A stretch of DNA of 64,000 nt from Lepidurus packardi (lineage: Eukaryota; Arthropoda; Branchiopoda; Notostraca; Triopsidae), in NCBI GenBank assembly GCA_023053545.1, contig JAKZAN010000002.1, positions 8,056,790-8,120,789 on the forward strand. Reading direction: 5' to 3'. The notes under the pieces were generated by a model. It searched no databases. It saw nothing but the letters and a program-made list of their open reading frames with translations, and was not told where the DNA came from. A program made the translations under genes and the position numbers. Of this stretch, positions 3,461 through 64,000 are shown piece by piece (position 1 is the stretch's first letter; each line of letters starts with the position of its first letter).

Positions 3461-4023
3461 TTTTGAAAGCTTTATGTCGTTTGACTTGAAGCTGGAAGAC
3501 AGCTAGTAAAAGCACACTCCTGCAAGCTTTTCAAATGTCACCGACCAAAACAAACAACATGGCCTTGTTCCCTAGCTGTCATCTAACGGGTTGTCCAACT
3601 ATAATTTTCGAAGCTTCATGACTGTCACTAGATGCCGTTTTAGAATATTTAAACAAAAATACTCTTTAAAAGTAGCGGGTTTCCGATTCATGAGTCCTAA
3701 CTTGCTTAGTGCATCAGCTCACCTTGGGTTCAGAAAGTGACACATATCCCGTTATATACGCCAAAATGGATTCATCTTGGACAGGATTATACTAGTTTGC
3801 ATCTAACTTTCTAGTAAGTGCCCTTTTACGTATTTATTAACTGCATAAACGGTAAAAATTGATGGGTGGTATCAATTCAAACATTGTTCCTTGTTGACAT
3901 TTGTTTTGAAATGTGCAATTTCAAATAGCAGACGGTGTTTTGAAAGTAAGAGTAAGACATCAACTCGGGATACTTCTAACCTAACTATGTATGTAGTGTT
4001 TTAGGTTGCTTCAATCCAAAGCA
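3461..4023. promoter_or_regulatory. shared divergent promoter region, gamma-tubulin / Greatwall
   Basis: This 563-bp stretch separates the start codons of two divergently transcribed mitotic genes. An acceptor-like TTTTAG ends at 4004, 20 bases before the Greatwall ATG, so Greatwall probably has an upstream untranslated exon inside this interval. No TATA box or named factor site stands out. A bidirectional promoter is inferred from the layout only. Confidence 0.45.
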
Positions 4024-7000
4024 ATGAATTCCTCCATGACCCCTTGTTCAAGTCAAAGCCGCGTTGATGTTGATTTACAGCTAGCAAATACTGGTAGTAG
4101 TACCCCAGGCGCAAATCCTATTCTGTGCCAGTATGACATGGACTTTGCCAATACTGTGGCTTGTCGCATCAATCAAGTTACAGATACAACTTTAAATACC
4201 TTTCACCACCCTCCAGATCCGCTTAGAGAAGCTACCAATACTTCGAATAATGGCAGTTCTGGTCCGTTACATGTGCCCAACAATACCAACCACGGCATTA
4301 AAAAGCCAGTCGAAGCCTCTCTCTCTTGCCGTGCCAGAAATAAGTCCTGCAAGTCAGTCGCAGAAGTTCCTACCATCCAAGATTTCACGTTACTGAAGCC
4401 GATCAGTCGAGGGGCTTTTGGCAAAGTCTTTCTGTGCTGTAAGAAAGGCTTGCCTTCGCAGTTGTACGCTGTCAAAGTCATGCAGAAGTCAGAGTTGGTT
4501 CTCAAAAACATGTCTGCGCAAGTCGTCCGTGAAAGGAATGCTTTGGCTATAACTCGGAATGCTTTTTGCGTACACTTGTACTACTGCTTGCAGTCGGCTC
4601 ACAGCGTCTTCCTGGTCATGGAGTACCTCATTGGCGGGGATTTAAAGTCCCTTCTCAGCTTGTACGACTACTTCGATGAAGCTATGGCCGTTTTTTACAT
4701 CGCCGAAATCACTTTGGCCTTGGAGTACCTGCACAGCCACGGAATCGTCCATCGAGACATCAAGCCCGACAATATGCTTCTCACCGCCACTGGCCATGTC
4801 AAGTTGACAGACTTTGGGCTGAGTCGCGTGGATATTAGCAACCGTGATCTTCATATTAGTGATTTGATCGGACCCACGCCTGCTAAAGCCCGTCCCACCG
4901 CGTTGTGCTCTCGAACGCCTGGTCAGGTCTTTTCCCTGCTCTCGCATTTGTCTTTTTCTTCGAGTAAAGAACGGCGTTGCCAAGAAATGATCCCAGCTTC
5001 TCCACAGACTTCGCCAGGAGCTCACGTTTCCACCCACCCAGCTTCAAACCAAGTCGAAGCTCACTGCCACAGTTTGACTTTTGAGGCTAGCTCGTTATTG
5101 GCTCACAGCTTGGTCTCGTCTTCTGAGTCGCTGGGTAAGTTTGTACCAGCCATTCACTCACCTAATTTCTATTTATTTGTTTTCTTAATGGGATCTTTTC
5201 TTCCTTCTCGGTAGAAGATATCCAAACCAGACTACAGTTTGATCAGAGCATTTCATGTTCGCCCGACTCGGCAAACTCGTCAGTTTCCCCCATTCGAAGT
5301 CCGCATTCCAAAAGTGCCTTATCGGTTGGTAGAGAGGAAGCATCAACAACTGTTCTTTCGGCTGTTGAGCATCTTTGTACGCCCGAGAAAGGCGTGAATA
5401 CGTCAGCAGAGGCCTTAGCATCTCCAGAAGTCCTCCGGCACGACTGGAGTACGGATTGGTCCAGCTTCCGCTACATCAGCGGTCATCGACAACTGGTGGC
5501 GTCACCCGAATACCGTAGGCCGTCTCCTCCCTGCGTGACCATTCCTTCGCCTGATTTTAAAGCTCCTGCTGCTGCCAGCTCTACAGAAACATCTCACGCT
5601 GCATTCCCAATGGGTAGGAAACGTAAGTTGGCCTTGAGCAGTAGTCCCGATCCTGCGCGAGATGGGCCCTCTAAGCGACTAGCTACTGGGCATACGGGAC
5701 TCACGCAAGATCTGAGCAAATACCGTCTCTTTGAATCGCCGTTAACCCGCCTTAAAGCTCTACCTTATGTAACTCCAGTAAGGGAATCTGGAATCCCCCT
5801 GACAAGCGTTCAAGAGCGCACTCAAGTAAAATTTTGTCTTGACCGATCGACTTTTGATCGACTAGGTCGGCTTTTGGGGAGAGTGTATTAAGTAGCCGCT
5901 TTTCCGTCTGTCATCTTTTAGGTAGCTCAAAATTATACACCCATGAGGGCTACACCCAGGTTAGCCATACATCGCCGAAAACAAAGAACTCCAGAAATGG
6001 TTACTCCAGGGCGAGCTGGGAGCGAAGCTCGTTTGTTAGGTACCCCCGATTATTTGGCTCCAGAACTACTGCTGGAAAAAACACACGGTTAGTATTATAT
6101 ACAGTGGTGCCTCCGATAACGAACGCAATCCGTTCCAGGACGGCGTTCGTTATGCGAATCGTACCTTATACGGGGTGCCGTTTCCCATAGATTCTATGGG
6201 AATAATTTTGATCCGTTCCCGAGCCCGGTCCAAAATCGCGAAAAATTTTGCATTATGACATTGGATGCCACTTCTTTTCTTAAGCCCATGAAACCCCCTA
6301 TTGGCTTTGAACTCTTCTTCCTCTTGTTCTAAAGTTTTGTGAGCTTGTCCCCGGAGTGGATCTTATAAGATCTTCATACTTGACCCTAGCTTTCTGACGT
6401 ATTATTTCCAGTGTATTGATCTCCTTACATTTGCCTTTCATTAATCCAAACTAACTGCTACCTCTCCATTTCATTATCAATCAATTTTCTGTGCATCTGT
6501 GAACAAGCTCTTGAGACTCCTTTGACCACCTTAGCTCTCATGATTGATTCTCTATTGGCTAAAATTGTTCCTATGGTTGAATTGTTCACTCTATATTCAG
6601 CTACAAGATCCACAACTATAGCTCTTGAGTCATTTTTCTCTATGATTTCCTGCTTCGTTTCAGTAGTAAGTGCTTTGCTACGCTTCCCACTACTAGCGCG
6701 TTCCATATTGGTTGCACTGGTGCAATATTTTCGCACTTAGTATGTAAAGATATACACGATTGACATATACTAAGTGCCTTAAAAAATATTGCATCCGTGT
6801 AGCCAGTATTCCATTGGCTTATCTTTACATACTGAGTACGAAAATATTGCACCAGTGCAGCCAGTGGAACGCGCTATAATAAAAGCACTGAACTTTCTAC
6901 AAATTTAAGATGTAAAAAAAACGTAACATAGCGCGTGTGAGGTTCCTAATGCGGGCCCGTGTTCATTATTCGGAACGGAACATGTTCCGACCCGCGTGGC

Positions 7001-7619
7001 CGTAACGCGGGACGTTCGTTTTGCGAGGCGCTCGTTATGCGAGGCACCACTGTATATGCAGTATTGCTAGTTCTCTTCGAAAACGTATTGGAATACATGA
7101 AGCTCAATGCTTCTACTTACAGGTTGTGCTGTGGATTGGTGGTCCCTGGGCGTTTGCCTGTACGAATTCTTGCTTGGAGGACCGCCTTTCAATGACGATA
7201 CGCCAGAGGCCATTTTCGGCAATATCTTGGCCAGGAGTAACCTTTTCTTTTCTTTTTGCTTTAAATTTGCTTTGTGTAGATACTATTTCTCCTTGCTAGA
7301 CGTCGAATGGCCTCCAGAAGACGATCCTGCCCTCACGCCGGGTGCACGACAGGCCATAGAAGCAATGCTTACTTTGGAACCCGAGAAACGTGCGACGGGG
7401 CAGACTCTCAGGCATATGCCCCTTTTTAATGACGTCGAATGGAGTCGCCTTGCCACTCATGATGTAGAACCTCCCTTTGTACCCCAACCGCAGAATGAAA
7501 CGGACACGACTTATTTTCAAGGTATTCTATTGTTTCAAGTGTTTTAGAATGAAGTATAAATTTGTTATTTAGGTCGCAATGGTCTTCAGAGTCTCAACAT
7601 GTCACCACCCAGCATGTAG
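4024..7619 (+). CDS. MASTL: Greatwall / MASTL mitotic kinase
   Basis: AGC-family Ser/Thr kinase that phosphorylates endosulfine/ARPP19, which then inhibits PP2A-B55 so that cells enter mitosis. Exons: 4024-5134, 5215-5825, 5922-6087, 7123-7236, 7300-7521, 7573-7619; sum 2271 nt, 756 residues (human 879). Glycine loop SRGAFGKV near residue 127, ATP lysine in YAVKVMQK (K151), HRDIKPDN at 243-250, DFG at 263, then [18 protein letters not shown] near 613-630. The roughly 355-residue insert between DFG and APE is the Greatwall hallmark, and [14 protein letters not shown] matches the family. C-lobe: [14 protein letters not shown] and [14 protein letters not shown] tail: FVPQP...DTTYF, ending NMSPPSM. 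The exon 2 donor is ambiguous: GTAAAA at 5826 is preferred, and a GT at 5883 also keeps frame. The 1035-bp intron 3 holds a DNA transposon. Confidence 0.95.
6102..7052 (-). mobile_element. Tigger/pogo-type Tc1-mariner DNA transposon, internally deleted
   Basis: The ends are near-perfect inverted repeats starting CAGTGGTGCCTC, the terminal motif of Tigger-like elements, flanked by TA at 6100-6101 and 7053-7054. On the minus strand an open frame at 6458-6736 encodes a CENP-B/Tigger N-terminal helix-turn-helix, with [30 protein letters not shown] and a preceding SGKRSK basic stretch. The rest of the transposase, including the DDE core, is absent, so the 951-bp copy is non-autonomous. It lies wholly within intron 3 of Greatwall and leaves the splice sites intact. 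A second element is nested inside it. Confidence 0.88.
6696..6874. mobile_element. 179-bp palindromic MITE nested in the Tigger copy
   Basis: Inverted repeats of about 55 bp begin GCGCGTTCCA and contain GCACTGGTGCAATATTTTCG, facing each other around a short centre. Flanking TA dinucleotides lie at 6694-6695 and 6875-6876, as expected of a Tc1/mariner-type insertion. The centre holds a further diverged copy of one arm (ACATACTAAGTGCC... versus ACATACTGAGTACG...), so the element looks like a partial internal duplication. It has no coding capacity of its own. It sits upstream of the Tigger remnant's open frame and must be younger than the host copy. Confidence 0.8.
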
Positions 7620-17579: not shown

Positions 17580-20500
17580 TTAGTCCTTTTTCCTTGTCCG
17601 TTTAACTTTCCCCAAAGTTTGTGAACCTTCTGACTTGAGAACTTTTACACTGCCATTCGATTGCTCACACGAACCAATGTGTTGAACTGAGAACGAAAAA
17701 TTCGTGTTAGCATTTTTAATCCAGTAAACATCACGTCATTTACCCATTGTGTTGCAATCAGTTATCTGAAATCCGCAGGCACACACAGCGACTTCCGAAA
17801 TATGAAAAATGGGACCGCATCTCGACAGAATACCTTTTGCGTGGTTTTCCAGGCGATGATTTTCCATAGTTGCCATGCAGCATGTTGTAAAATTACATTC
17901 CGTGCAACAAGTGTAAGCTCTACAATAACGGTACAAAAAGACCAGTTATGCTTACACAAAATTACTTTACATACACGTAACACTCGATTACTTACGCGAA
18001 ATGATTTTCACTGCTCAGAAGCTGACCACATTCAATGCAATTCATGTTTGGAGGTACAGTCACCTTCATTCCAGGGAAGTGTTTGATAAAATGGGCTGAC
18101 TCAATAATGCTAGGCTTCAGACGAAAGACGTGTTGATTATTCGTAGACGACATTGATTTGGCCAATGCCAAGTTGGGTCCGTAGGATCTAACACCTGTTT
18201 GGTGAAATTGAAAATATTCGCTAATTGAACATATTCTTTCAAACCATATCTTAAATTTAAATGTACCTGGAGTTCCACGCAAGCTCTCGTGACAAAATTT
18301 CATATGCTTTCCTAACATTGACGCTGTGACAAACTGCAATGTACAAGATCTACAATCGTACTTCTTCAACTGCGACTTGATGATGTAATGCTCCTACGCA
18401 CATAAATTACAATGAAATAATGAAAAACATTACATTGAAAAACTACACTATTCTACCTTCAAATGACTCATGAAAGTTTTCTGCATATCCTGGATACTTT
18501 TCGTGGCACCAAAGCACTCCAAGCACATAGGGCACATTAGGTAGCCGCTGACATGATGAACCTAATAGGGTCGAATTAAGATCTAAAGAAGTAGTAAATA
18601 AGTTAAAAAAGTTAAATAAGCTACTTTAGCGAAGTGATCCAGAGCATCTTTTTTCTTAGAAGAGCGAAACTTGCAAACAGTACAGACGTAAGGTAATTCC
18701 AATGGAACATGTGAATTTCGCAGATGCTCCAGTAAGTTAGTATTCCTTGCAGAATTTTGTTCGCATATTTCACAAACATGCGCGCCAAGTTCGCTATGAG
18801 CTTTCTAAAAAGCAGAGAAACTCACCGTATAAGCAAATTTTCTTGCTTAAGCTGCAAAGTACCTTAACATGGATCTCAAGCTCCTTGTCTGAAACCGCCG
18901 ACTCGATGCAGTAAGGGCAAAAGAGATTTTCCTTCCCGTATCCAACTAGCTGCTCCAAAGCATGTCCAAGGAGATGTTCCACTGCTTCCATATTGTCTCT
19001 AAAAACAGCGCCACAGTTTTCAATCTAAGAAAGAAATAATACTATCAAAGTAAAAATTGTAAATAACGTTGTATACCACACAGTATGCCGTCATTGGAGA
19101 TTCCCGAGCTTTTTCGATCAACTGTGCAGAACCAGGCAGAACACCGTAAAAGCTGTAAAAGCCCTCAGAATCAACGCTTGTTTCGCCCTGGTATATTTCC
19201 CCTGCTTCGGCTTCCGACCACTCCACGCTAAGAGGAAGCTCTCCTATGCTACCAGCCAATCCAACCGTCTCGTCATCGTCGTCTTCGGAGAATCTTAGTA
19301 CCTTGGATATAGTTCCAGTGCCTACTCCAGTGCATAGTAGCTTTTCGCCTAACAAGAATAGCGATTAATTTTTAGGTAAACTATACCACTCTTTATTAAT
19401 CTCAGTACTGGACTTTGCCAGTGTAAATGCTCTAGAAGGTAAAGGCTTGGCTATAACCCCTGGCGAATCGAAGCCACCAGTTTTGTATTTCTTTAAAACT
19501 GGAGCAGTATTGGCACCTTCTGATTTTCTTTTCCCACCAGTTGCTGCCAATACAGAGGACGAGGTACTCCTTTCGCTGTCCTTTGGAGTACCCTAATAGA
19601 ACATCACGTAAAATATAGCGAGCAACTAGAAATAATTGCGCGAATTACTTCCAAAGATATAGGGGCAGACACGGCGTTTAGAACTGCTTTGGAAACAGTT
19701 GCAGGCGTTACTAGTGACTCGACGGCTTTGATTGCATGCGAAGGTAATGCCCAATCTTTCATTGGATCAGCTGCAGCAGAAGCTAGGCGATTCATTAACG
19801 AAGTTCCTGAAAGAGTCCAATTTAACCAATTAAAATTCAATCAGTTCTTCCAACGCATCAAGACGAAGTACTATACCCAGGTCGACACGTGTCTGCATAC
19901 TGATGTCGCTGATGATGTTATTGAAGGCATCCAGTGAGGTAGTGCCGCACCTTTCGCGCCATACTAACTCGTCCAGAAACTGTTGTATCATACCAAGACT
20001 GAGCATAGATAAAGCACTCTATTGAACACCAAATGCAAAAATCGAAATATTAGATGACATTTCGAAACTGACAAAATAAACTTACCTGAAATATCCGTGG
20101 CACGACACGTCGCAGGTAATCCATAACAATACGGTTACACAGACTATCATTAGGCCCAACACTCTTCAATGACTTTTGGATTACACTATTAAATCCCAAC
20201 TCCTTTAATACACCTCGGTCCAATGTAAAATCTGTCAAGATCGTTGCCTATTAAGAAACAGATTTTATTAAACAAATTAGATTACTTAACGACATTTTCC
20301 CCTTCTATTTTTACGAATTTCAAACTAGATTAATTCACTCAATTGTTTTTCTTTATTTTGAGTCAATTATTCATTTTAAATGTGTTACTAAATACAGTAG
20401 ATGTCACTTATCGTGATCACGCCTGTCGATTAATATTGTTTCTATTAAGCAGAGATTCTAATAACCGAAAATCGGATATATGCAATAAAGTGCTGGGATT

Positions 20501-23500
20501 AATCGGCGCATGAAACGAACTGGCTTGTTCAAATAGAAGAAACAAAGCAACGTCTACTGTTCGACACTTTCCCACACGTTTTCTTTTTCTAGATTTACTA
20601 CATCTACTATTGTTTATTATCGTAACGATTTTTCAACACTTTGGATGATTAAGGAATTCCTAACATAACGACCGCTTCTCTTTGTGGCAAATCTTTCAAA
20701 TTGAACTTGTCATAATTTTCCATTAGCCGCAACTTCTCTTTTACATTTAAATCAACTCTTTTCTTGTTTGTCATCATTTTTATATAACCACACGTCTAAA
20801 GCATAACTAATACTGCGCCTTTGAAGCCTATTCCTACGCTTAGTTAGGGTTCTTAACACGATATCCTTCTATTTTTTTCCACTCAGTTAAAGGAACTGGT
20901 CATTCAATTGAAGAACCTGCTCATTTAATGAACTGGGGAGCTTAGAAGGGATTTCCCCCTAAGCGTAGACGTAGACTGCAAATGCCAGGATTGGTCAAAA
21001 AGACGTAAAAGCAATGTCACTAGTCAATATGCAAAGTCCATGTAGCACTCACTACGGTGTTTCGTTACTGTACACGTGAGGATTCTTTTGAAATTGATTC
21101 TAATACCCAAAAGTGATTCTAACAACCGATTAAATGCTATGAATTGTGACATTGTAAACGGTCCTTTAAGGGGCCACAGCCTCCAAATCGCATATTGAGA
21201 TTTTGATGGATTCTTTATTGTACACGTTATTCTAAGAACAGAGAATTTTGTTTCAGGTTTTTCTGAGTAGCCGTTCCCGAGTTATTGACTTGCAAATTTT
21301 CACCACAGACTTGCTAAGGCTCACCAAAGCAGCGTCACAGGGCCACGTGACCGCGCGGGGGCCAATGGCAAAAATGCCAGATTTGAATTCTAGGTTTCTT
21401 CTTTTTTTAAGATAATTTTTTTTTTTGGTGGCTATTGCCCTTTAAAGTTTTCTTCCATAAAGCGGCTGATTCTAATAACCATGGTGATCACAATAAGCGA
21501 CATCTACTGCAGTATTCATATGGATTTTTCTTACCTCAGTGGTCACCCAATTTCTCATGGGCTCCAAAATACGCAAAAATCGAACGCGACTAATTTCGCC
21601 AAAATTCGGCTGGCAAGCGCGTAGACGCATTTGCTTGGTTGAGTGATCGTAAATCCCCAAAACTTCTACTTTCACATCACGACGCTGCCCATCAGTGTTT
21701 GTTGTACCCAAACTAATTATCCCAACCTGAAAATTCGCTTTAAAATGTACACAAAATGCCCTGAACTTAAAAGTGCTTACTTCAACGCGACGATTTTCAG
21801 TCGAGCCTAGCACTGGGGTGCGTGTATGAAGAGAAACGGTGCAGACGGCACGTAGCATTGTATAAAACGAACGTAAGTACGTACGATCCACCTTGACCCA
21901 CAGCTCTACGTTATGGATGGAAGTTTGGCAAGCCCAATGATAGAGCAGCTTCACCAAAGAAGCTGGGGGATGAGGGGCTGCTTCAAAGATGGAATTGACG
22001 AATACCGAAGTGAAAGTGGACGCACAGCAAGGCATGATCCATACGTAGCCGCCACTATGGGGAAATTTGCCTTCATCCGTAGCCATTCCTAGCTGCATAG
22101 GATGGGTAGTAATACCAACAGCGTGTCTAAGACAGCTGCCACGCTGTACGCTTCGCAACAAGCCTAGCTGTAGAAGCCATTCCGTAAACTTCCTTGGGTT
22201 CAAAACAAGCTTCGACTTGACCAGTGCATCTGTGTGAAAAGCAAAATTGCATTATGATGCAGGTACTTCTTTTAATGTGACAGTAGTTACCTAGTTCTTG
22301 TCGTTTCTTCAAGGCTAAACGCAACGGTGCAGCACTCTCTGGTTTAACTAGTACATTCAAGGAAGGATAAGTTTTTGAGGTCGGTGGAGATGTGTCTAAT
22401 TAGAAAAAAATAAAGAATTCGAGATAACAGGAGACAATATTGTCGTACCTTTCGTGAACGGCGCTGGAACATTTACTTGCGAAGCAGTGGGTATTTTATC
22501 AACGACAGAACGCACATCTGTGATAATTGGCATGGAAGTTTCACTAGTTTTAACTGCGGCGGCAGGCTGGGCAGCCAACGAAGGCTGAACCGTTGACGTC
22601 ACTCGCATCGGTTGTGTTTGTACCAAGCTAGTTTTTGCGATAGGTCCTACAGGTTTTATAGGTATAAAACGGATGTCAGCAAAGGTATTCAAAACTGGAT
22701 ACCTCTCTGCATTGTTCGAGGAAGGTTACCGGCAGGGTTTGAGACATCCTTGGCCGTTTCACTGCATACACGTGGAGCCATGAGTTGTTCTACTGGTCGC
22801 AATTGTACTTGCGTTGGCTGAGGCATTACTACGAACAACTGAGACGTGGGAGCGGGAAGAGTGGCTGGAACAGTGCGCGCTAACAAAACCGAGGCGTTAG
22901 GCGTAACCGTTAATGGAGTTAGTGACGCTGAATGCAGCAATACGTTATTTGGATTTGATTCCAATTTAGGTTGTGTTGGGGTGGAAGTCAGAACATTAAT
23001 GCTTTTCGTAGCAGCAGAATCTTGCAAACGAGACAACGGAACTGGCTCGATCGCTTTCTTAAACGCTACCAAGCTGGTGGGGTTTTGTACTGATTTTCGA
23101 GCGATGGAAATACTTGAATGTAACTCAGAGGAATGTTGACTTGTTACCTATAGCCAGAGAAACATACTCGAATCATAATGCATACGCACACAGAAAATAA
23201 CCTATTAATTAGTTTTGTTCTAAAGGTAAATAAAAAAAAAAGCTGAATTGATTGTTTGGATATTACTTACATTGGCTTGGTCTTTAGCCTGATTAGCAAG
23301 TACTGATTTGGACTCCACTGGGGAGATTTTAACAGACATGTTGGTTTTAATAACCCATGTAAAAGGGTCCACCTGATTGACACTAACATTTGGATCTAGG
23401 GAAAAACAGAAAATTAGTTTTCTCTTTATTTATAGTACAAACGACGTATATAACGAAGTCACCTTTGTGGAATTTCTCTAGTTCATCCGTGACCCGTTTC

Positions 23501-23637
23501 CACGCAGTCAACCGATTGTTGTAATGCGTTTTTTGTACTTCAGAAAGCTCTTCCTCTTCACACTCGCAGATAAAACTGTATGCATTCGCGCTATAAGAAG
23601 CGTCCTTTTGCATCCCTGTAGAATTTATCCCGGCCAT
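17580..23637 (-). CDS. POGZ/ZNF280-family zinc-finger protein with an ISXO2-like transposase-derived domain
   Basis: Probable nuclear chromatin protein; vertebrate POGZ binds HP1. The start MAGINSTGM leads to CECEEEELSEVQK, matching the ECEEEELEPWQK start of human POGZ. A Ser/Thr/Pro-rich region follows (23.4-22.3 kb). Then comes a domain of about 350 residues that follows the ISXO2-like/IS1595 transposase pattern: SIFEAAPHPPASLVKLLYHW, RVEVGIISLG, RFLRILEPMRNWV, ATILTDFTLDRGVLKELGF, FLDELVWRERCG. After a basic and an acidic linker lies a POGZ-type C2H2 array: FCPYC, VCEICEQN, PYVCTVCKFRSSKKKDALDH, LMCPMCLECFG, YDCRSCTLQFVT, NCIECGQLL, CCTECNFTTCCMATMENH, AVCACGFQI. The protein ends in KVKRTRKKD. 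Human POGZ instead ends with a pogo DDE domain, which is missing here. The first catalytic Asp appears replaced (VEVG for VEID). A pogo remnant sits in the intron at 20.25-21.53 kb. Confidence 0.85.
20395..21512 (-). mobile_element. pogo-type DNA transposon remnant in an intron
   Basis: Inverted ends CAGTAGATGTC(A/G)CTTAT and GTGATCAC face each other at 20395 and about 21509, with TA at 20393-20394 and 21513-21514. On the minus strand a 42-codon frame at 20649-20777 begins MMTNKKRVDLNVKEKLRLM and contains NLKDLPQREAVVMLGI, a pogo/CENP-B-type N-terminal helix-turn-helix. No other transposase part is open, so the copy is non-autonomous and decayed. The interior repeats the motif GATTCTAA(T/C)AACC several times. 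It lies within an intron of the POGZ-like gene, next to the exon at 21534. Confidence 0.8.
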
Positions 23638-24600: not shown

Positions 24601-25057
24601 CGCTAGAGTAATATCTAGGTAACACCTGGGCGGGACCAAAGGGCTTTCCCCTGGTGGGAGAAAACCTTTTAGGTCCCTGTAGGGACCTAGGATGTTAATA
24701 TCAACCATAATGAATTATTACGCCAAATCATAGTTTTTCATTGTTATTTTAATGATTATTGGTAACATTCCATGTTACTATTTACGATCATTAATATATG
24801 ATGCCATCATGAAACTTTGCACTAAAAGCATTATTTTTTAACCTTTCAATTAGCTGAGCGTTGAATTTCAGTTCGGAAAAGTACAACTGATGGCGCTACT
24901 TTCGTTTTCACAACGACGCCAATAACAACATACACTAATCCGACCTTGTTTGATACTCCTCATCAATGTTGTTTTCAATTAAAACGTCTACACTTTGTTT
25001 TTAAAAGCTTTAAAGTGTCCGCGGAATCTATGTCGAACACGTTTTAACATAGCAAAA

Positions 25058-26413
25058 ATGAATGCAACGAGTTTGTATGTTTCTACATGTAGATTAGTGA
25101 TGCAGGGAGATGTCCACAACTCGTCATGGTGCGATTTGTACCGTCTTCTACCTTACCTCCGTCAGTCGCTGGCATGCACTGTTTGTCACAATCTTTTAAT
25201 CGAGCCGTATACGCCTGCAGATAGTAAGTGTCAACACCACGTGTGCAAAATGTGTAAAGGAGGGAAGAAACGACTTAAACCGTCCTGCAGCTGGTGCAAA
25301 GATTATGATGAATATTACGAGAATATACAACTACGTATACTGCTCCAGTGTTTTAAGAAACTCTGCGAGTACATGTCCAGCACTGTGATTTACATGGAAA
25401 TTCAGAAAGCAATGACGAATGGATGTAACGAACTTATTGACATTATTCGTGAAGGGGCTGGGTTACGAGATGAGTACAAGACTTCGTTTGGACTCAGTAA
25501 ATCTGCCTATTCAATCCTGCCCTGTGTCTTTGCCCCCACTGCGTCTGCTGCAACTCAGACTACATCAACTGTTCTGGCGGCACCTTTTAGAGGCAAACTG
25601 GTAGCCCAACAGAAAAATTCCGTCACTTCCAACAGCAGCGTAGAAGCTAGTGGTTGCAGCAGCTCTGAAGCGACCCTAAATACAAACAGTCTCTTCACAC
25701 ATTCCAATACAACAAGCAGGCCTGTGCCCATAAAGAAAAAGAAAGTAACCGTAAGTTCCCGGCCAACTTCGAGTGATTCAGTCGAGCAGGTGAGCAGCAG
25801 TCCTGCTTCCACTGCTTTTACCGCTGTTCCGCCACCTGAAATGTTAAAGAAGTTGCGAGTCAAACACGCCAAACATGCTAAACCCAAGCGTAAAGGGTGC
25901 CGTTGCGGCAATGCTACGGCCACCCCGGGCAAGTTGACCTGCTGTGGGCAACGGTGCCCTTGTTACGTAGAAGCGAAAGCATGCATCGATTGCCGTTGCC
26001 GGGGGTGTCGAAATCCACATCGTCCGGGAGGCAAAAAGGTGCGCCCTATTATTGCAGAAATAGAACTAAACCGTCAAAAGACCCTGGTTGCGGATTACAA
26101 GCTGGGAAACAAGACAGAGCAAAGTTCTGTTCAAGGAGACGAAACTAGCAGTAAAAGTGTGTTGGAATCAGGTCACATTCAGGCAAATTTCCTAGTTTCG
26201 CCCAAAAATTTGCCACAAATAGCGAGAAAAACACAAGTGAACCAAATCTCCTTAGCCAATGCCAGCTTAAATTACGTCGTCTCTCATACGTCTACGCTTT
26301 ACTCAACCCATCCGCCGTTGTTTGTAGAGCCGGTGGAAGATGTGCCTACCACCTTGTTAGTAGATGACGAAAAATCTGATTCTGACAACAGTGATATTGA
26401 CATTGATGTATGA
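25058..26413 (+). CDS. MSL2: MSL2, E3 ubiquitin ligase of the MSL complex
   Basis: RING-type E3 ligase and DNA-binding subunit of the male-specific-lethal histone H4K16 acetyltransferase complex. A single exon encodes 451 residues. The start MNATSLYVSTCRLV matches human VNATALYISASRLV, so the ATG at 25058 is chosen although the frame stays open upstream. The RING finger is at residues 40-80: C40, C43, C58, H60, C63, C66, C77, C80, in CTVCHNLL...CQHHVCKMC...CSWC. A Ser/Thr-rich linker with basic KKKKVTVSS follows. The CXC domain is at about 279-322 (GCRCGNATATPGKLTC, CGQRCPCYVEAKACIDC, RCRGCRNP), the part that contacts DNA in flies. The tail is acidic. It lacks introns although most neighbours have many. 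It is convergent with TPP2, with 88 bp between stop codons. Confidence 0.96.
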   Translation: MNATSLYVSTCRLVMQGDVHNSSWCDLYRLLPYLRQSLACTVCHNLLIEPYTPADSKCQHHVCKMCKGGKKRLKPSCSWCKDYDEYYENIQLRILLQCFKKLCEYMSSTVIYMEIQKAMTNGCNELIDIIREGAGLRDEYKTSFGLSKSAYSILPCVFAPTASAATQTTSTVLAAPFRGKLVAQQKNSVTSNSSVEASGCSSSEATLNTNSLFTHSNTTSRPVPIKKKKVTVSSRPTSSDSVEQVSSSPASTAFTAVPPPEMLKKLRVKHAKHAKPKRKGCRCGNATATPGKLTCCGQRCPCYVEAKACIDCRCRGCRNPHRPGGKKVRPIIAEIELNRQKTLVADYKLGNKTEQSSVQGDETSSKSVLESGHIQANFLVSPKNLPQIARKTQVNQISLANASLNYVVSHTSTLYSTHPPLFVEPVEDVPTTLLVDDEKSDSDNSDIDIDV

Positions 26414-58000: not shown

Positions 58001-61000
58001 TATTTTACTATTTAGAATAAATTAATTAAACTTGACAGCGCATCAAGTGAAAAGAATATACTGGCACCCACTGCGGCGGCACGGAAAACTCCTAATTTAT
58101 GCAACAATAACCTTGACAATAACACCAACCAGTCCCTAAATGCCCCACCTTCTTCGCTCATGCCTTGAGTTAGGCTTTTTAAGGTTCTTTGAAAAATAGT
58201 AAAAAATAACCCATAACGCATTGCTTCTGTAATTACGCAGTGACTTGTACCCTGACCTAACCACGAGAGGAAGTTCCGAGAAAACTGGCATAAGCAATCT
58301 CATTTGTACGCTAAATCAATTAATTACAGAACTTGACCCCAAAATCGCATTAATTTTTTCACAACATTTATACCGATAACAGTAAACAAATTTTTGTGAA
58401 AATGCAACTTGTAGGAAGAGTACCATTATTATTTGTTTCAGACAGCCCTATATAAGTTGCTCCGATCAAAAACGAATGAACGAGATGTCCTAATAGGTAT
58501 CACGCACCATACGTCACCTCTAAACATTGAGCATTCGACTTTGTTGGACTTGATTGACGACCACAGCAAATACCGACAAAAGGATAATGAGCATAACAAT
58601 GAAACATAGCTGAATAAGGTACAGTTTGCATGTAATTCGTGGCACAAAAACGCCAGAAGGCTTTAAAACCTAAATGATTTATAGCTGTGCGGTTAATTCA
58701 TAAATCTCATGTTCCCTTTTACGTTGTGACATTTGGAAAATCCAAGATCATTGTCAAAATACCTTCTTTTTTACTCCTGTTGTAAGGACATGCTCCCTTT
58801 GTATTTAGCTGTATTAGTAGCATGCAAATATTTGTACTCTTGGTTAGTTTGCTGAACCAAGTAATCAAGCAAAGAGGGAAGCATTAGAACATATATTACC
58901 GCCGTCTTGGTTTGGGAACCACCCAGGGAAAGAACCCGCCAAAACTAAAATAAAAATCCGACGTTGTCAATCCCACATTTAACATTTGAGTTAACGCTGG
59001 CTAACGAAAAATTATGATCGATCTGGAGTAGATTGAAGTTTTCGCCTAAGTAGGGGCTCGTTTACATTAACAACGTGATTAGATTCAGCCTCTGGGAGCT
59101 GCAAAAGATTCCTATGCTTGTTGAACGATTTCAAATAGCTTAAATATCCCTCGAGGTAACAGTAATACTACTGCATTAATATAATACTGATACACTGCAA
59201 AAAAAGTTGACTGCGATGAAAATCGAGTGTAAATTTGGCAACAAAACTCATAATTCCATTTAAGTTTATCACGACCGTTAGAAATTTGCACAATATGATG
59301 TAGCACGCACGGTCTTATTGCAAAATAGCTAAAAATATTTTTTTGTATTACTAGCCAACTGTACTACTTCATGCATCGTGCGCAAATTGAACAACTATAA
59401 TGAAAAATCTAGTAGTCTAGTTCTGTGCCGCAGCTTTGTGACATCATAAACTGCATGTTAGTACGGAAAACCTTCTACAAAATCATAAGTTTTGGCACTT
59501 ATCCCAAAGTTTTTTACAGTTCTGCAAAGGAAGGCAATGTCGGATTTTTTTCTTCCCCGACACCGTAAATTACGACATCTGGAAAGCTATACATACTCCC
59601 AGCAAGCCTGGTATGCTCCCTTTCAAGAAGATATTTTTACTTTCCCGAACGCTGAGAGCAGCCTGAGCTGTTCAACGTAATATATCCTACTCAGACCGAA
59701 AACCCTTTTACTCGACTCCAGACCGATTATTGAGGGATTGAGAAAGCTTTTTCTTTTCGGTTTATCTCGCGCCAAACATGCATCTCAGACCGCTAGAAAT
59801 TTACACATCCTTAGCAAACCGCCCGTAATAGAAAACGAAGATTTCTGAGAGATATAGGAACATTTATTAGTAAAGCTCGTCGTTAAAAGTTAGCGGCACA
59901 GATCATGTAGTAGTTTTTCCTAAGAAATCGATCAGCTTGCGTGTATTTTATCATTCAGTCGCAAGCATACAGTTTAAGCCACGGTGTTTTCAAAAATAAA
60001 TAAAATAGAAAGACTGACCTGCGCTTTGATCTGGATGTCACTGCTACTGTTCCAGGAGACCGGCGTCGTTTTCCGCTTTTCCGCCAAATTCAGGAAGCCG
60101 GTTTTGTCACGGAATTCCATGGCTGACGGCGCTTTCTCGAACAGCAAAACGCGTTCGGCTACCGACCCACGTGTAAGAAACGGACGAATCGGTACGCCAC
60201 ATGAGCTATTTCCTTGACCTCCGACTCCCACCAGTAAGTTTTCATTTTGTTGTTGTTGCTGTTGCTGTATGCTGCGTTCCCGCAAGTGCTGCTTCTGTTG
60301 TACCGTCAACTCCGGATGAGGCAATGCTGCAGGTGTAGCCGTACCGGGACCATCCGTTTCGGGTACTTTCCTGGATTTCCTGCCTTTTTTGCGCAGAATA
60401 TTCGCGAATTCTGGTGCTTCTTGTGGAGGGGCGTTATTTTCTGGTACCCGAGGTCCTGGCAACGATTCTTGCGCTTGTTGGTGATGTCGACCCGGTACCC
60501 ACTCCGACCGCCATTGGGAATCTGGGATGTTGACTTGCCCATTTTCAAACCGATGGCGCGTTTCCATTACCAAGTTGGCCGTCATGTTGGCTTTCTTGTT
60601 GACAATGCGATTCTCTTCCATACGCTGCTGAGTCAGGGGATACGCTTGGGCGTTTTGGTATCGGACTTTGGCATAATTGACTGCCGACAGATTGGGCGGT
60701 ACACTGTCGGACAACTTCGGGACCTGTCCCTTTGACGGGGAGTTTTCTCGAGTGAAACGTGGGCTGGTGGTGACATTCGAGTTAGGAAGTTCGCGACCTA
60801 GCGACGCGGCTCGAGACGATGAACTATCATTTTGATTTTGTAGCGATCGAAGCTTATCTACCAACGTTTCGAGTTCTTCTTCGCCCAAATAGGCACTCGG
60901 TGCTGAACCGGGTCTTCCGTAGGGCGCCGACCAGCGATTTGAGATGACTTTCTGAGTCGGGGCAATACTGTTGTCGATTTCCGAGCTCCTGCTTCTCAAG

Positions 61001-62622
61001 AAGTCGGATTTTTCAGGAGATTCCTCCGGGTACCGACCCGATTTGAGTGCGTTAATGAGTCGCTGTTCTTCCTGATCCACTTGCGAGGCGGCGCTGTTTA
61101 CAGCGGCCGTTGAAGTGTACGTTTTGGTCGCTACCTTGATAGGTGACGGCTCTTCGAGTAGTTTAACTCCGTCTACAGACTTTCTGGGTGAGAACGTCGG
61201 CGGGTGTTCTACGAGACCTTTTTCAAGCGGCCAGGTTCCTATTCCTGGAGCCTTGTCTTGCGAATCTACTTGTTTGGCAAACCTGGCAGCGCGTAGTTTG
61301 ACAGTGTCCCCCGTCAGCGGGTCCTCCAAACGAGGGTTTTTATGACGCGCGTAATGTACTGCTGACTGAAACGTAGGTGACGGCGGAGTCACCATGGCGG
61401 TGGTGCCAGCTTCTTCCTCGCGAACTGCAGCCGTCGTAGGGTTAAGGGAATTGTTTTTATCGGTAGTTTCTTGGTTAGCGAATGGGCTCATTGGTGATTT
61501 ATTGGCTGCTTCGGGAACTCTAGGTGCTTTAGGATCGAGTTTTCTATTCATAGACGGTGGGGATGGTGCACTGACGGTTGAACTGGACGGAGAAACAGAG
61601 CGCACAGATCGGGCAGGTGAATTCCGCTGCCGGGCTAATCGGGCTTTGTCTTCTTGCACAAAATTATTCACTAATACTTCCAGGTTAACTTCCAAGGACG
61701 GCGACGCCAAAAGATCCACCGGGGACAGCTTCGACGGCGGCTGACTGGCCCCACTTTGAGCTTTCGCGACTTTAGGACTAGGCTCCGCTGCTGCGACAGC
61801 TGTCTTGCTCGACGCTACACTAGGGGCCAAACCCGGAGACGTTAGCGAAGTTATGGGACTATTGGGCACGTTGGGTAGTGCACTGGCAGGCGATCGCCCG
61901 CTTAATACTGTGTTATGGTAGTGCAAAAGCTCCACCGGACTAAGCCCTTTGGCTTTCCACGTTTGGTAAATGACTTCGGCATGGTCCGAAATCTGCTGGG
62001 CGATCGCCTGAATGTCTTGTTCTTTGGAGGAGCCAGGTAGCATAATCTTCTGGAAGACTTCATTAGGATCCACAGGCATATCGGAAGAGGCTACTGGATC
62101 ATTCAAAGCGGAAACGGAGGAAATGGAGGGAACAGAGGTGGCTAAGGGCGGTACAACACTGCCAACGGCAATCAGATCAGGGTGATGGTTCAAGAGGTAG
62201 CCGGCAGTGTGCGGATCGAGTTCAGCTTCACTGTCAAAGACCACTTCGACGGCGTCTGGCGTAGCGGCAGGTACGATTTTTACCGGAATAGCATAGCCGA
62301 AGTGAGCTGTTTTGCAGTCCACCACTTGCTGACGTCCTTCGTGTACCAAACACGCATTCAGGTTAGGGTAATGTATGACACGGGTGGGACTAGAGTCCAC
62401 CACACAGCTCTGGTATGGGTGCAGGGATGAAGCTATAAAAATACAAGGAACACTTTTTAAGCCAGACTTGTCATTGCCTTTCAGGCTCTCTTTATCAGGC
62501 TTATGGCAACTATCACGTCGAGCAATATTGGTCAGGTTATCTGCAGGCAACGAGGTGCCCTTGCTGGGTTGCAAATAGCACGCTGTTGTCGTATTGCCTA
62601 AACCGCGTTGAACAACAGACAT
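52097..62622 (-). CDS. PPP2R3A: PP2A regulatory subunit B'' (PPP2R3, PR130-like long form)
   Basis: Calcium-binding B'' subunit that directs PP2A to substrates. The first coding exon, 60019-62622, holds 868 codons from the first ATG (MSVVQRGLG); it is Ser/Pro-rich with a seven-Gln run near 60255 and ends SDIQIKAQ. A 5036-bp intron follows, then 54982 onward: NYSNTDKENRPLF, FHFPFGRPILAGGDAG, VCGVPLYWKVPLFLAAGGEK, DDFIPLLQDVVESHPGLTFL, FHSRYIHTVI, EEEEDINQITDYFSYEHFYV, EF-hand 1 DRDHDLFIDRKD, SSRIVDRIFSGAVTRG, EF-hand 2 DFDGDGYLSMYE, YFYEEQLQRMETLGIE, NLDKFLDHEQRDPFACQ, SDWDRYAAEEYELLVAEE. It ends HIPLSSR, stop 52097-52099. Both EF-hands keep their acidic ligands. The frame stays open to an acceptor-like TTTTTAG near 62762, so more N-terminal exons may exist. 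The tail and EF region match human PR130/PR72 closely; which human paralogue is nearest is less sure. Confidence 0.93.
54983..60018 (-). other. 5-kb intron of PPP2R3, possible internal promoter
   Basis: By far the longest intron in the window. It contains no recognisable gene or transposon. A GC-richer block at about 55900-56250 ends, on the minus strand, in a good splice donor (CGCAAAAG then GTAAGCGC near 56110). That would suit an alternative first exon for a short PR72-like isoform, as in vertebrates; no in-frame ATG was found there, so this is only a possibility. Open frames on either strand within the intron are short and unrelated to known proteins. Confidence 0.4.
57711..57746. repeat. 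perfect 11-bp inverted repeat with two TTCTAGAA heat-shock-type units
   Basis: CCATTCTAGAA and TTCTAGAATGG are exact reverse complements around a 14-base loop. Each arm contains TTCTAGAA, the inverted nTTCnnGAAn unit bound by heat-shock factor. It lies within the long PPP2R3 intron. It could be a hairpin, a regulatory site or chance. Confidence 0.4.
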
Positions 62623-64000
62623 TGGAAAATGAACCCCTGTCGTCGGGGCTGCTTTGCACGTCTTTTCAAATCTTAAAAACCCCGCCCATTCTCTGTTAAT
62701 TTGTGTACTGCTTCCCTGGCTTCCTTTGCGAACACAACCCGCTAAGGTTTTTCTGCTGCTAAAAATAGCCAATACTTCTATTTCTATTAAAATGGCATTA
62801 GCGAGGTTATCCTGCCAATCACAACACTAAGCTCCAAACAACACTGAATCACTCAGCCAAGAAAACTAGTAAAAAGCAGTGACGAAAACAAAGACCAACG
62901 GCTAAAAAGATTGTAGGTTGAAGAGAAAGATGTAGGTTTCAGAGTTGAAACGCACACAGACGTGAAGGTTCTGTCGTTTGCTCGCTTACATCCTCATGCG
63001 ACTGTGCTCTAGGATCGACATCGTTACTGCCCAGTGGCAGCAGCTTTTGGCATGCACATTTCAATCCGAGTTGTCCTCGACTCCGATGCATTTATTTCAG
63101 TATTAAACAAGACCCACCAACGCGAAAACCAAACTACGATAGAGCTGGCGACTACGTACCCACTCCACACAACGTTGCCTCCTACTATACCAATGTTTAA
63201 CAAATACGTCAATCGAGATACCTCAACTTTTAAAGTTAAAACGTCACGAAAAAGGGGTAAATAACAATATCTTGCCCCAAACACAGTCCCGAGCTTTCGC
63301 TGACTAGAAATCTGCGCCTTTACTAGCTCCCAAATATGCATCTTTCCGGAAATTCTAATTATATCCCAGGGTTCTCTCAGAGTATGCCATACTTGGCCAG
63401 GACCAAGCGTCTCCCGATTTTTGGCCACCGCCATACCAAAACGCTCCAATGGGCGTCTACCGGTGCTCGACGTCAGCACACTCATTTCACTGGAAAGTTT
63501 ACATCGCGTTGACTTTAACCCAACTTTTTGTGCTCAAGATTCTACAGTTCAAGTTAAGAAAGTCACGCAATTCGAATACAATACGATAACCAATAATGCA
63601 TGCAACTACAGATATACGCATGTTTTTTGTTTGTTTTTTTGCCCCGAGTACACATGGGCCAAACAAGATGGGTACGAAAAGGTCATTGAACGGTACTCAT
63701 TCGCTAATTAGTTCGCCAGCGTGCAGTGCCTTAAATGTAATGTTCATGGCATAAAAAGAAGACAGAACATAAAATGTCAAATGAGTTGTGCTCACTGAAA
63801 AGAAATGAAAAGAAAAGAAAAGAAGAAAAACTTGGCAACACAGCACATGCTCAGAGAATCAGCAACATTAATTCCTTGCTTTAGTTTGCTTGAGATTATT
63901 TGGGACCAAAAGAGTACTAGAACAGACCCACGTAAGCTTTACACCTTTATAGTCCTAAAAATGATAAGCCAGGAATGCTTTGAATTCTTTTCCTCTTGAG
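62623..64000. other. upstream region of PPP2R3, no supported gene
   Basis: Contains the continuation of the PPP2R3 frame to about 62761 and presumed promoter sequence. Minus-strand 63024-63485 is open for 153 codons, starting MSVLTSSTGRRPLERF, and plus-strand 63421-63711 for 96 codons. They overlap and neither has a recognisable domain. The minus one could be an upstream PPP2R3 exon or chance. A purine run of GAAAAGAAAAG units lies at 63795-63825. Confidence 0.4.

Follow-up and report, generated by a model that had tools for sequence, protein, structure and literature searches.

POGZ is a neurodevelopmental disease gene that owes its name to its transposase part, and the locus of Lepidurus packardi analysed here raises the question of whether a protein of the same type carries an unrelated transposase in another position. 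An original prediction had placed, in the window (the whole 64,000-nucleotide stretch of DNA under analysis), a member of the POGZ family whose N-terminus and zinc fingers are separated by an IS1595/ISXO2-like domain and which has no pogo DDE domain. Should a POGZ-type protein indeed hold an unrelated, probably inactive transposase before its fingers, the fingers would represent the old core, one and the same protein would have captured transposases on more than one occasion, and the roles of the captured domains would be comparable between lineages.

Gene model and the POGZ-type parts of the protein

The POGZ-like gene lies on the minus strand at 23637-17580, with an ATG at 23637 that is preceded by in-frame stops and a stop codon that ends at 17580, so that the predicted boundaries were reproduced exactly. 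On the basis of reading frame and splice consensus, it is predicted to comprise 19 exons and to encode a protein of 1220 aa. The exon joins are predictions, the splice sites having been picked to keep the frame; all 18 introns are of the GT-AG type, 17 of the 18 donors start with GTA, and 17 introns measure 52-123 bp, versus 1,287 bp for intron 7. No AATAAA is present within 380 bases downstream of the stop codon. The features of the locus, with the evidence for each, are as follows.

23463..23637, minus strand: exon 1, ATG and the N-terminus with the POGZ-like ECEEEEL...QK (sequence, splice model, upstream in-frame stops)
22291..23395, minus strand: exons 2-5 (23395-23271, 23147-22703, 22646-22449, 22395-22291), Ser/Thr/Pro/Gln/Asn-rich linker (splice model, frame scores)
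21781..22229, minus strand: exon 6, first half of the IS1595/Merlin-like domain, with its ribbon-like and HTH-like part, stopping just before the first catalytic block (profile positions 62-124)
21535..21726, minus strand: exon 7, opening of the RNase H-like core, with VEVGI where the family has VEVDE and hence Gly in place of the first catalytic Asp (alignments, structure model)
20395..21509, no strand assigned: decayed transposon in intron 7 (26-nt terminal inverted repeats at 20395-20420 and 21484-21509; stops)
20086..20247, minus strand: exon 8, second catalytic block with its TD intact, the third acidic residue being missing or displaced (alignments)
19877..20018, minus strand: exon 9, block FLDELVWRE... 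at the C-terminal end of the domain (profile positions 255-286)
19077..19806, minus strand: exons 10-12 (19806-19649, 19592-19409, 19348-19077), linker to the fingers (splice model)
17744..19024, minus strand: exons 13-18 (19024-18863, 18804-18625, 18561-18457, 18393-18267, 18194-17996, 17919-17744), POGZ-type zinc-finger array (zf-POGZ match, colinearity with an approximate human POGZ sequence)
17580..17686, minus strand: exon 19, basic C-terminus and stop, with no pogo DDE after it (splice model, six-frame search)

Codon usage, scored after training on 1,545 codons of other genes, favours the predicted frame both in exons 6-9 (+35 bits versus -103 and -103 in the other frames) and in the finger exons 13-18 (+33 versus -94 and -113); exon 19 scores slightly negative (-0.14 per codon), yet its predicted frame is the best of the three. 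The stretch of aa 60-349, ahead of the central domain, consists of 45% STPQN.

Membership in the POGZ family is upheld by the spliced protein, in which zf-POGZ (Pfam PF25429) is matched at aa 1110-1149 with E=2.4e-10 and 41.2 bits against a curated cut-off of 27; searched without splicing, the exons give only weak values for this pair (0.019 and 0.011). The zf-Di19 family also exceeds its Pfam cut-off in this protein. The fingers named in the original prediction, PYVCTVCKFRSS, CPMCLECF, CRSCTLQF and CCTECNFTTCC, as well as the N-terminal ECEEEEL...QK, are all present in a single spliced frame and in the order that it gave. The comparison sequence of human POGZ is an approximate one, but can serve as a positive control because Pfam finds zf-POGZ, DDE_1, HTH_Tnp_Tc5 and a Z280C/D-type finger in it. 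The finger region is colinear with this approximate sequence (phmmer E=4.9e-25, 496-833 to 870-1188), and the ECEEEEL...QK N-terminus is one that we take to resemble the human letters. A PDB sequence search with the finger part returned generic zinc fingers only (best ZNF524, E=6.1e-9), and a scan of the viral contigs with the finger array yielded no relative.

The predicted absence of a pogo DDE domain was borne out as well: Pfam reports no match to HTH_Tnp_Tc5, DDE_1 or the Z280C/D-type finger in the spliced protein, and the pogo part of the approximate human POGZ matches none of the 1,599 six-frame pieces of the window. Since the Z280C/D-type finger of that human sequence is not reported here, the HP1-binding region may have changed; one strict PxVxL-like site is present in the protein, PNVSV at aa 60. 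The exon 12 motif SVDSEGFYSFYG was considered as a counterpart of the LEDGF-binding motif near the human POGZ C-terminus, and was dropped: by eye, it aligns with the human VDDFYYGRDGG just before the fingers, a pairing that rests on eye alone, given that the phmmer alignment starts at human residue 496.

Other genes in the window encode gamma-tubulin, Integrator subunit 4, tripeptidyl peptidase II and MSL2, a set indicative of animal DNA. The MSL2 gene (24983-26413, plus strand) consists of one open frame with RING (E=1.2e-31) and CXC (E=3.6e-17) matches and forms a head-to-head pair with the POGZ-like gene at a distance of about 1.3 kb. A gene at 3997-7544 on the plus strand encodes a protein kinase, possibly greatwall/MASTL, whose kinase domain is divided among exons that lie far apart; the first part of it gives Pkinase at E=2.1e-35. 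At 59977-62826 on the minus strand, an open frame of 950 codons, for which Pfam gives no match at E 0.01, lies in the 2-kb stretch with the highest G+C content of the window (0.525). Rfam returned nothing over the window.

The central domain and the IS1595/Merlin family

The central domain spans aa 350-664, encoded by exons 6-9, and is of a very divergent IS1595/ISXO2 type. Here the original prediction stands in part. Pfam returned nothing for the unspliced ORF, the 403-aa central region or a 298-aa version of the domain, NCBIfam nothing for the 403-aa region, and the curated cut-off of DDE_Tnp_IS1595 was not reached by the domain. The prediction was to be given up if profile searches produced no IS1595-type match, and, read literally, the plain Pfam scan of the whole domain is such an outcome. 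By contrast, a 161-aa DDE piece, chosen after wider pieces had failed, has PF12762 as its sole Pfam family (E=0.13, 12.7 bits versus a cut-off of 27), with residues 55-144 of the piece placed on positions 64-152 of the 153 in the model, and a purpose-built profile recovers a match across most of its length. In an animal, the fitting class name is Merlin rather than IS1595/ISXO2, inasmuch as PMC8101967 describes Merlin as eukaryotic elements that have DDE_Tnp_IS1595 in common with IS1595.

The purpose-built IS1595 profile draws on nine plasmid records, 80 genome-contig loci and 80 viral-contig loci (169 loci, 134 proteins used). Against aa 351-720, it scores 8.5 bits (best domain 7.7) over model positions 62-285 of 297, a value reached by one of 20,000 composition shuffles of the same residues, with the reversed sequence at -2.8; hhalign gives P=5e-4 over 265 columns at a probability of only 31%. 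With the 1220-aa protein as the target, the summed score falls to -3.6 and the best domain to 4.1 bits, and off-target scores amount to 5.0 bits for the fingers of the approximate human POGZ and 5.4 bits for an unrelated piece of the window. Outside its fingers, this human sequence has no IS1595 match.

Dissection by exons locates the signal. Exon 6 falls on model positions 62-124 (49/10,000 shuffles as high), exon 9 on 255-286 (6/10,000), exons 7-9 together on 173-285 and exons 6-9 on 62-285 (1/10,000 in both cases), while exon 7 alone does not stand out (992/10,000) and exon 8 alone is under the reporting limit. The flanks lack a match, with 832/10,000 shuffles as high for aa 1-349 and exons 10-12 under the reporting limit; the match is therefore restricted to exons 6-9 and consists of two distinct parts that follow the order of the model. 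An approximate Merlin sequence scores 8.4 bits against the domain, with 1/20,000 shuffles as high, but its match is broken into three fragments, one of them out of place, and is taken as supporting evidence only. The viral contigs, scanned with this Merlin sequence and with the central domain, contained no relative, and a PDB sequence search with the unspliced domain ORF returned nothing. Judged at the level of sequence, the colinear resemblance of the central domain to IS1595/ISXO2 is beyond chance but faint.

State of the domain and its large intron

In the profile alignments, the first catalytic Asp of the family block VEVDE is replaced in VEVGI, the TD of the second block is retained, and the Glu of the third block corresponds to Val if the alignment is ungapped, or to an Asp two residues on in the HMMER placement. 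With the catalytic positions altered, cleavage is unlikely, and the sequence thus suggests that the central domain is probably non-catalytic; the broken triad is a point absent from the original prediction. Three introns, of 54, 1287 and 67 bp, interrupt the domain, and we found no terminal inverted repeats with target duplication framing the transposase: among seven inverted-repeat pairs in 19300-22750, the sole perfect-looking pair frames the intron-7 element only. Internal introns and the lack of framing terminal repeats are more in keeping with a long-established host domain than with a mobile element. When exon 7 was modelled in AlphaFold from its single sequence, the model came out as beta-beta-beta-alpha (mean pLDDT 62), as expected of the start of an RNase H core; in Foldseek, it produced 272 matches at E up to 10, the best at E 1.0 and none meaningful. 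The model of exons 6-7, in which the in-frame 54-bp intron was read through, has a pLDDT of 36 and is given no weight.

Intron 7 (21534-20248) lies inside the IS1595/Merlin-like domain and houses the decayed transposon, whose 26-nt inverted repeat has no other copy in the window. The element includes a stop-broken remnant of an HTH-like ORF (20795-20649, minus strand), for which Pfam returned nothing. It is possibly a pogo/Tigger relic, an origin that is our own reading since the HTH-like piece has no Pfam match. The intron also carries four sense-strand AATAAA hexamers, which make a shortened isoform possible, and the frame of exon 7 remains open for 20 codons into it.

Origin of the domain and comparison with known systems

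We consider it likely that a POGZ/Row-type gene acquired a Merlin (IS1595/ISXO2-class) transposase in the distant past and has kept it as a non-catalytic domain between the disordered N-terminal part and the fingers. The ancient uptake would have involved a chromatin zinc-finger gene, and the captured domain, retained ahead of the finger array, would have lost DNA cutting. Its ribbon/helix-turn-helix part and RNase H-like core may form a DNA-binding and self-association module, which could help to position the finger protein on chromatin. POGZ and fly Row suggest, by analogy, a possible transcriptional role with HP1-type partners. In vertebrate POGZ, the transposase is an unrelated one of the pogo/Passer type, located at the C-terminus.

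This explanation has to be weighed against the notion that the IS1595 resemblance stems from chance or from a fold that is similar but of separate origin, with exons 6-9 being a POGZ/Row region of other ancestry, which would account for the absent or sub-threshold family matches, the hhalign probability of 31%, the missing catalytic residues and the lack of a structural match for the exon 7 model in Foldseek. Such an origin is nevertheless unlikely, given that exon 6 (49/10,000) and exons 7-9 (1/10,000) each fall on the corresponding part of the model, whereas the flanks and the reversed sequence have no match; the fragmentary match of the approximate Merlin sequence, partly out of order, adds support on the same side. 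We find it very improbable that the locus holds two genes or isoforms, with exons 1-7 encoding a short protein that ends in intron 7 and the finger exons belonging to another transcript. The size of intron 7 (1,287 bp versus 52-123 bp for the other 17), the transposon and the four sense-strand AATAAA within it and the 20 open codons after exon 7 would all suit such an arrangement, but the profile blocks cross the intron, with exon 7 stopping immediately ahead of the TD block and the remainder carried by exons 8-9, the domain has the POGZ N-terminal motif on its upstream side and the fingers on its downstream side, and a short isoform made alongside the full one would be compatible with the full protein.

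A different account accepts the Merlin-like domain and sees in it, rather than a lineage-specific capture, a long-standing feature of invertebrate POGZ/Row proteins that was lost or replaced in vertebrates. The strong divergence and the three introns of the domain suggest age, and the recruitment of pogo to POGZ in the lobe-finned fish ancestor, as summarized in PMC7386202, would leave room for such a replacement, although the approximate human POGZ lacks an IS1595 match outside the fingers; we treat this account as a serious possibility, if one that we lean against. Beyond the capture of Merlin by a POGZ/Row-type gene, a wider reading would be that different animal lineages independently fused the POGZ/Row chassis to transposases of two unrelated superfamilies, Merlin here and pogo in vertebrates, and that the chassis has repeatedly profited from capturing a non-cutting transposase that serves in chromatin targeting and self-association; for this generalization, we see the balance as even.

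Compared with known systems, the window protein shares with human POGZ, in its approximate sequence, the zf-POGZ pair, the ordered finger array and the acidic ECEEEEL N-terminus. Human POGZ differs in having HTH_Tnp_Tc5 and DDE_1 after the fingers and a Z280C/D-type finger, none of the three being found here, whereas the window protein has an IS1595/Merlin-like domain before the fingers. According to the account in PMC7386202, the POGZ transposase was derived from Passer/pogo. Drosophila Row (Relative of WOC, CG8092) is paired with POGZ as its fly counterpart, at 21.1% (PMC10948934), and is described as a zinc-finger partner of HP1c that is required for HP1c on chromatin (PMC9078007).

With Merlin transposons and the IS1595 family, the central domain shares the colinear profile match, the VEV- and TD blocks and the FLDELVWR block, but it differs from them in its altered triad, in the lack of detected framing terminal repeats, in the introns inside it and in being part of a larger protein. 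Judged by titles and abstract openings, no POGZ-Merlin protein appears among the matches listed in the open-licence literature. A parallel is a Caenorhabditis brenneri protein in which DDE_Tnp_IS1595 is followed by WD40, mentioned in PMC8101967, which also cites host-transposase fusions and leaves the case between degeneration, misassembly and a functional chimera. In this Merlin chimera, the domain sits in a different host protein, and the POGZ-Merlin arrangement would itself belong to the known class of host-transposase fusions.
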